A stretch of DNA of 64,000 nucleotides from Candidatus Bathycorpusculum termitum (GTDB lineage Archaea; Thermoproteota; Bathyarchaeia; Bathyarchaeales; Bathycorpusculaceae). The notes under the pieces were generated by a model. The model did not search any database, was not told where the DNA came from, and was given only the letters and a program-made list of their open reading frames with translations. Made by a program: the position numbers and the translations under genes. The DNA is taken from contig JAIRTW010000105.1 of the NCBI GenBank assembly GCA_031254875.1, positions 18,358 to 82,357 on the forward strand, given 5' to 3'. Within the stretch, counting starts at the first letter, position 1, and every line of letters begins with the position of its first letter. Below are positions 2,248-3,711 of the stretch, one piece after another.

Positions 2248-2449
2248 AGTTTTATATTCCCCTAAAACTCCGTTTTGCGGAATGCCATCCACTGAAGGAA
2301 GATGCACCATGTAATCTTTCTGTGCGCCTAATTAATATTTCGCCAAAGCGAGGGTCGACTGGTTTTTATGTGGATATCATAATTGCGCTTCGACACCCGC
2401 ATAACAGAGCTATAGGAGCCCTAAACATTTTTAAGGCGCTCAATGTTTG

Positions 2450-2521
2450 ACTCACCCAATTGGCGGGTGAGTGGAGTCTCCCATCCGTTCCGCCAATAAA
2501 AACAAAACCCGGATAGGGAGG
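2450..2521 (+). promoter_or_regulatory. Candidate structured RNA leader (riboswitch-like) of queT-queC with kissing-loop/pseudoknot and sequestered Shine-Dalgarno
   Basis: Hairpin P1 ACTCACCC(2450-2457)/GGGTGAGT(2465-2472), 7-nt loop AATTGGC; hairpin P2 CTCCCATCCG(2478-2487)/CGGAT-A-GGGAG(2510-2520) containing the GGGAGG SD (2516-2521); P1 loop ATTGGC(2459-2464) is complementary to GCCAAT(2492-2497) in the P2 loop. Confidence 0.6.
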
Positions 2522-2528
2522 CAAAACA

Positions 2529-3050
2529 TTGAAAATACAAACCAAAGACTTAGCGATAATATCACTATATGGCGCCCTCTATGTGTCAATGGTAATGTTT
2601 CTCCCAGCCATATCTTATGGAGCCGTGCAATTCCGTGTGGCCAACACATTGCTGGCAGTGGTGCCGCTTTTGGGCATAGCAGGAGTTTTGGGGCATACAT
2701 TAGGCGTTTTTGTTGCGAACATATTTTCGCCCTTTGGTCCCATCGATCTGCTTAACACAATACCTTCATTTGTCATGACTTTTGTTGTTTACTATATCTA
2801 TAAACGCACCAAAAAAGACTCAACAGTGATCGGAACCTGCATCGCTTACTCCGTAGTCTTAGGTGTGACAGTGGGGTGGATGCTCAATTACTACGCACCA
2901 GAGTTGCAGAGAGAACCCTTGATAGGCACCATCGCATATGTCGCTTTGGGAAACAGTCTTGTCAGTGTACTTGTCGGATGGCCAGTGTTTAAGATTCTCA
3001 AAAGAAGCGGCGTATTTGATGCTTGGTTAGGAGAGAAAAAACATGAGTGA
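2529..3050 (+). CDS. queT: QueT-family (COG4708-like) 7-deazapurine precursor transporter
   Basis: Small multi-TM protein, MKIQTKDLAIISLYGALYVSMVMFLPAISYGAVQFRVANTLLAVVPLLG...; TTG start 7 nt after GGGAGG; overlaps queC. Confidence 0.75.
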   Translation: MKIQTKDLAIISLYGALYVSMVMFLPAISYGAVQFRVANTLLAVVPLLGIAGVLGHTLGVFVANIFSPFGPIDLLNTIPSFVMTFVVYYIYKRTKKDSTVIGTCIAYSVVLGVTVGWMLNYYAPELQREPLIGTIAYVALGNSLVSVLVGWPVFKILKRSGVFDAWLGEKKHE

Positions 3051-3711
3051 CAAAAAGTGTATAGTCGTGTTAAGCGGAGGCCCTGACTCCGCGGTGGTGG
3101 CATACTGGGCTAAAAGACAGGGCTACCAGATTTACCCCATAACCTTCAACTACGGTCAAATCGCCGTCAAAGAAACACAGGCAGCCCAAAAAATCGCCCA
3201 AACCCTCGATACCTCTACCAAAGTTATCGACCTCTCAGCCCTCAAAGATATCTTCGGCGGTACCACATCTCTAGTGACCCGCGATATTCCCCTCACCTCA
3301 GAATTCAGCAACACCATCATCGTACCCTTTCGCAACGCCATCTTTCTCTCTGCCGCCGTCGCATACGCTGTAACGGTGGATACAGATGAAATCTTCTATG
3401 GCGCCCACGGCTCCGATGAACCCTTCTATCCCGATTGCAGGCGCGAATTCTATGAAGCCTTTGAGAAAGCAGCCCAGTTAGGAACCACCCGGAAAATTAC
3501 CATAAAAGCGCCCTTCAGTAGCAAACCCAAATCAGAAGTTATAAAAGAAGGCATCAAACTGGGCGTACCCTTTGAGCTTACTTGGTCATGCTATCTCGAT
3601 GGTATCACACACTGCGGTAAATGTGAGGCCTGTGTTAACCGCAAAAAAGCCTTCAACGCAACAAACACCACAGACCCCGCAGAATACGAGACCACATCAC
3701 AAGTGGCTTAA
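3043..3711 (+). CDS. queC: 7-cyano-7-deazaguanine (preQ0) synthase
   Basis: PP-loop VVLSGGPDSAVVAYWAKRQGY and C-terminal Cys cluster CYLDGITHCGKCEACVNRKKAF. Confidence 0.9.
   Translation: MSDKKCIVVLSGGPDSAVVAYWAKRQGYQIYPITFNYGQIAVKETQAAQKIAQTLDTSTKVIDLSALKDIFGGTTSLVTRDIPLTSEFSNTIIVPFRNAIFLSAAVAYAVTVDTDEIFYGAHGSDEPFYPDCRREFYEAFEKAAQLGTTRKITIKAPFSSKPKSEVIKEGIKLGVPFELTWSCYLDGITHCGKCEACVNRKKAFNATNTTDPAEYETTSQVA

Follow-up and report, generated by a model that had tools for sequence, protein, structure and literature searches.

The window, a 64,000-nucleotide stretch of a contig from Candidatus Bathycorpusculum termitum, carries a leader located between a divergent psmB gene and the genes queT and queC, both identities being those originally proposed. 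The features of this locus are listed below in window coordinates.

1603–2310, divergent: psmB
~2420–2427, + strand: A-rich BRE-like stretch (A-rich at −40 to −37 across upstream sequences)
2428–2434, + strand: predicted TATA box TTTTTAA (A+T peak across upstream sequences)
2456–2459, + strand: predicted transcription start zone (from TATA spacing and general promoter knowledge)
2460–2466, + strand: S1 5' strand UUGGCGG (DNA TTGGCGG), partner 2490–2496 (covariation)
2467–2477, + strand: loop L1, opening with GUGAG in 114 of 146 copies
2471–2474, + strand: GUGG within L1, able to pair with CCAU 2481–2484 as the alternative hairpin PA
2478–2487, + strand: S2 5' strand, the anti-SD, CTCCCATCCG (RNA CUCCCAUCCG), partner 2510–2520 (own-versus-swapped pairing score)
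2488–2489, + strand: loop L2, UU, joining the S2 5' strand to the S1 3' strand
2490–2496, + strand: S1 3' strand CCGCCAA (covariation)
2497–2509, + strand: A-rich loop L3, conserved ...AUAAA(A/C)CC
2510–2520, + strand: S2 3' strand, CGGATAGGGAG (RNA CGGAUAGGGAG), containing most of the SD
2516–2521, + strand: Shine-Dalgarno (SD) GGGAGG, 7 nt before the TTG at 2529, masked in S2
2529–3050, + strand: queT, TTG start, ECF S-component for 7-deazaguanine precursor uptake (PF06177 QueT, 79 bits)
3043–3711, + strand: queC, 7-cyano-7-deazaguanine (preQ0) synthase (PF06508, 210 bits; TIGR00364, 189 bits)

The leader contains a compact H-type pseudoknot of two crossing helices, S1 and S2 (2460–2520, about 61 nt), and folds better than every one of 200 dinucleotide shuffles (z −4.1). 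The original prediction had instead described a kissing loop between two hairpins. The second of these, P2 (CTCCCATCCG 2478–2487 / CGGATAGGGAG 2510–2520), covers the queT SD as claimed and corresponds to S2; the position of the SD relative to the TTG start and the A-rich stretch that follows GCCAAT were also correctly read. The complementarity between ATTGGC and GCCAAT is present, but it extends over 7 bp and forms a conserved, covarying helix, S1, rather than a loop-loop contact. The first hairpin, P1 (ACTCACCC 2450–2457 / GGGTGAGT 2465–2472), can be drawn in the window but is absent from relatives, in which only its 3' arm GGGTGAGT is kept.

The compact motif, UUGGCGGGUGAGUGG..UCUCCCAYCCGUUCCGCCAA..AUAAAACCCGG..GGGAGG, was found in all 26 leaders (L001–L026) of queT orthologues from the genus and beyond. 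In a sequence-only MAFFT alignment of 25 of these leaders, which was not fitted to S1, this helix is 94% paired, both partners differ in three of its pairs (GC to CG, GC to AU and UA to AU) and its covariation score was reached by none of 500 shuffles. In an alignment of 77 copies made with a covariance model, and therefore fitted to S1, 92% of S1 is paired, 39 cells are changed on both sides and the covariation score is 0.173 versus 0.058 ± 0.008. Three core pairs of S1 are invariant and thus bring no covariation support. S2 provides an independent test, as it was not part of the search model: with phylogeny ignored, its strands score 16.58 with their own partners versus 14.32 ± 0.19 with swapped partners (146 copies) and 16.45 versus 8.5 for shuffled 5' strands (77 copies). 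In some copies the helix is completely rewritten (ACATCTC/GAGATGT, TTTCCGAC/GTCGGAAA, CTCGCA/TGCGAG, GCTCCG/CGGAGC). Compensatory changes therefore occur in both S1 and S2, while P1 is not conserved. The loops are conserved to the same degree as the stems: L2 is UU in almost every copy (3–4 nt in some divergent ones) and the 3' end of L3 is nearly invariant (AAACCCC/AAAACCC). An SD-like string lies within the S2 3' strand in 135 of the 146 copies. In one copy (L237, G511:C101), S2 covers a region ending at AUG (GTCGGAAAATG) with no clear SD, which suggests start-codon masking.

The position of the element relative to the promoter appears fixed. Across 159 distinct upstream sequences, which include a few chance bacterial matches, a TATA-like A+T peak is found at −35 to −29 from the GCGG (2463 in the window), preceded by an A-rich stretch at −40 to −37. 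Archaeal transcription starts about 25–27 nt downstream of the TATA centre, and the mRNA is thus predicted to begin within a few bases of S1. A start at 2456–2459 would place the element first in the transcript and leave out both the 5' arm of P1 and a further upstream stem (2416–2441) that had been proposed and that overlaps the TATA box, i.e. the promoter. A start downstream of the P1 5' arm had itself been named in the original prediction as telling against P1, and the kissing loop was rejected on this ground together with the lack of P1 conservation. The outer stem CAATGTTT/AAACATTG, obtained by folding 2410–2560, was also discarded, its 5' arm lying upstream of the predicted start.

In total, 146 distinct archaeal copies were recovered, chiefly from Bathyarchaeia and also from Methanomethylicia, records labelled Nitrososphaeria and Asgard. 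A first covariance model has matches in 131 of 165 genomes of the host order and 192 of 260 genomes of the host class (Bathyarchaeia), mostly with one copy per genome. A second one has matches in 80 of 401 genomes across the host phylum, in 15 of 40 Methanomethylicia and in 12 of 197 genomes of the Asgard-containing phylum. A pattern scan of GTDB genomes points to Bathyarchaeota, Methanomethylicota, records labelled Nitrososphaeria/Thaumarchaeota and Asgard. Bacterial pattern matches (8–24 bits, versus at least 28 for those archaeal copies at the search threshold that were confirmed) were dismissed as chance, and the viral contigs searched hold no copies.

Every copy to which a downstream gene could be assigned belongs to the preQ0/archaeosine pathway or its operons. 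The gene is queT for 135 of 146 copies (133 QueT-like frames detected by HMM, plus L079 and L129, in which queT is cut by a contig end or frameshifted). Four copies precede queE (L067, L084, L154 and L174), followed by a fused glutamine-amidotransferase-QueC gene in L084 and L154 and by FolE in L174; one (L240) precedes queC and then queE. In L084, the fused gene is itself followed by a gene for a DUF2848 protein, which may be part of the 7-deazaguanine pathway. Two copies (L169 and L241) precede a membrane protein gene in an operon with queC. The multi-spanning protein of L241, whose gene begins 63 bases downstream of the element's GCGG, has no match in Pfam or NCBIfam, and that of L169 has none in Pfam; this protein is a candidate for a new transporter of 7-deazaguanine precursors. 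Two others (L080 and L158) lie ahead of an ArcS-domain gene and a RaSEA-like gene, the former encoding a short protein and the latter a radical SAM protein. These two carry a variant element (CCCCAAAA) with a weaker S2 and without the CGG inner helix, and possibly differ in switch logic or ligand. Downstream of the second element copies in G171 (L187) and G179 (L188), no gene was recognisable (contig end; no frame). As for the metabolite, QueF was found in none of 101 genomes of the class Bathyarchaeia, in which controls were detected, whereas an ArcS domain occurs in 38 of 41 relatives, and the genome from which the window comes also has one. The absence of QueF makes preQ0, and not preQ1, the expected metabolite and hence the likelier ligand.

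S1 is compatible with two mutually exclusive states. When the predicted transcript is folded alone, S1 closes the inner hairpin PA (GUGG/CCAU) and S2 is absent (−22.3 kcal/mol), versus −19.2 kcal/mol for the fold with S2 only; these energies compare only the S1/PA and S2-only folds. In the −22.3 kcal/mol fold, a short local stem still contacts part of the SD region, and keeping the SD unpaired by constraint leaves the S1/PA hairpin on its own at −18.0 kcal/mol. PA is paired at 3.44 of 4 positions versus 3.18 ± 0.03 with swapped partners, phylogeny again being ignored, and exists in variant forms (GCGG/CCGU, GCCG/CGGU, AUGG/UCGU); it does not hold up in some of the divergent copies, namely those from Asgard and the CCCCAAAA variant. 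As S1 fits both states, a ligand-dependent exchange from PA to S2 would be the simplest mechanism, and the following model can be drawn. Without ligand, S1 would close an elongated hairpin in which L1 is paired to the anti-SD strand (PA), leaving the SD free so that queT–queC are translated. An abundance of the base would lead to its binding where S1 meets S2, together with L1 and the A-rich L3; S2 would then displace PA and mask the SD, and both uptake and synthesis would stop. For L080 and L158 (ArcS/RaSEA), such a feedback shut-off is less obvious.

Among queT leaders of the class without the new element, a second conserved form was found. Seven (L260/G005, L261/G012, L262/G057, L264/G090, L266/G097, L268/G007 at C2:547213–547256 and L273/G123) carry GGUAGUUUCCGUANAUAACCUACC..AAAAAACCGG, a preQ1-I-like H-type pseudoknot with AC and UU signatures; the form is also seen before queT as GGTAGTTTCCGTANATAACCTACC..AAAAAACCGG. 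Those examined have no Rfam match, and a match to the corresponding model in G117 is due to chance. The new element is absent from six of these seven genomes, an overlap whose smallness has P = 0.0015 if relatedness is ignored; the seventh, G007, has both leader types, each ahead of a different queT.

Taken as a whole, the leader is a real, conserved and apparently undescribed RNA element. The same knot occurs almost only ahead of the genes of one pathway in many archaea, which leads to its reading as very probably an undescribed archaeal riboswitch, on sequence grounds. Comparative analysis supports the conserved pseudoknot, the masking of the SD, the association with the pathway, the fixed promoter position and PA, whereas we infer the identity of the ligand, its direct binding, its site and the OFF direction. 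Alternatively, a protein such as tRNA-guanine transglycosylase or another pathway enzyme might bind the pseudoknot and repress translation by feedback, the RNA perhaps mimicking part of a tRNA. This would predict the same pathway association and suits the two copies ahead of ArcS/RaSEA-like genes, but very strongly conserved unpaired bases (GUGAG of L1, UU, AAACCCC) in an H-type pseudoknot of small size and with an A-rich L3 are in the style of riboswitches for small bases, and related genomes have a preQ1-I-like pseudoknot in its place, so that we consider it unlikely.

A second alternative, that of a divergent preQ1-I riboswitch of the same homologous class, draws on the H-type topology, A-rich L3, SD occlusion and target genes, which are all shared (PMC11625349). 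In preQ1-I, AC or UC, with the specificity cytosine, stands before the 3' strand of the first stem (PMC11625349), whereas the new element has UU in 140 of 151 pattern matches, and the C that follows is a paired, covarying base of S1 (GC 72, CG 5). S2 is also long (about 8–10 pairs), the preQ1-I signature is carried by a distinct leader of the host genus, and Rfam gives no match for window positions 2300–2620 at E ≤ 10, as originally expected for its preQ1 models, nor for eight relatives at E ≤ 5. Common descent with preQ1-I thus seems quite improbable. That the leader is structured but blind to ligand is scarcely credible: a stable stem masking the SD would suffice for a constitutive attenuator or an RNA thermometer, but the loops are conserved like the stems, a single pathway is concerned and the element occurs in groups with probably different growth temperatures.

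The claim of a conserved, pseudoknotted, SD-masking leader on archaeal 7-deazaguanine genes holds, and we regard the element with good confidence as a new class of archaeal translational riboswitch for a 7-deazaguanine base, with preQ0 as the likeliest ligand and probably acting as an OFF switch. The balance also leans, less firmly, towards a class so far confined to archaea, tuned to preQ0 over preQ1, spread across Bathyarchaeia, Methanomethylicia and Asgard, based on an exclusive ON hairpin and OFF pseudoknot that share S1, and interchangeable with the archaeal preQ1-I-like switch. Archaea have very few known natural riboswitches, and the fluoride switch is the only validated native one listed in a 2024 paper (PMC11549558). 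If true, a new class acting on the archaeosine pathway would mean that archaea evolved a 7-deazaguanine sensor of their own, besides offering a test case for whether RNA can favour preQ0 over preQ1. Archaeal genetics could also gain a natural translational switch from the element, which could further serve as a marker for unknown transporters of the pathway.

The element shows the general traits of riboswitches, i.e. a covarying 5'-UTR structure, one pathway and an expression platform, and no description of a similar one was found in the literature searched, preprints and most subscription papers lying outside it. The crcB fluoride riboswitch (RF01734) is also pseudoknotted and has known archaeal members, but differs in sequence, structure, genes and ligand, without Rfam match to the element. 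PreQ1-III (RF02680), of about 100 nt and five helices, shares the queT location, a pseudoknot and SD pairing, whereas the new element is about 61 nt long and has PA besides its two helices, again with no Rfam match. A 2024 review (PMC11625349) lists three preQ1 classes, with descriptions from bacteria only, and names queCDEF and queT among the genes that preQ1 riboswitches control there, which is a bacterial precedent for the new element. PreQ1-II (RF01054), an HLout pseudoknot with P1–P4 confined to Bacillota (PMC11625349), shares queT leaders and an SD-anti-SD helix formed upon ligand binding; the new element has only two conserved helices, no embedded hairpin and no Rfam match. PreQ1-I (RF00522), especially its type III with full SD occlusion, shares the H-type pseudoknot with an A-rich third loop, the SD in the 3' strand of P2 and, as targets, que genes and transporters. 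The new element differs from it by a much longer S2, the conserved GUGAG of L1, its archaeal hosts and genomes without QueF, for which preQ0 rather than preQ1 is expected. By the available tests it lies outside the known classes, and in its presumed working it resembles a translational riboswitch of the preQ1-I/II type.
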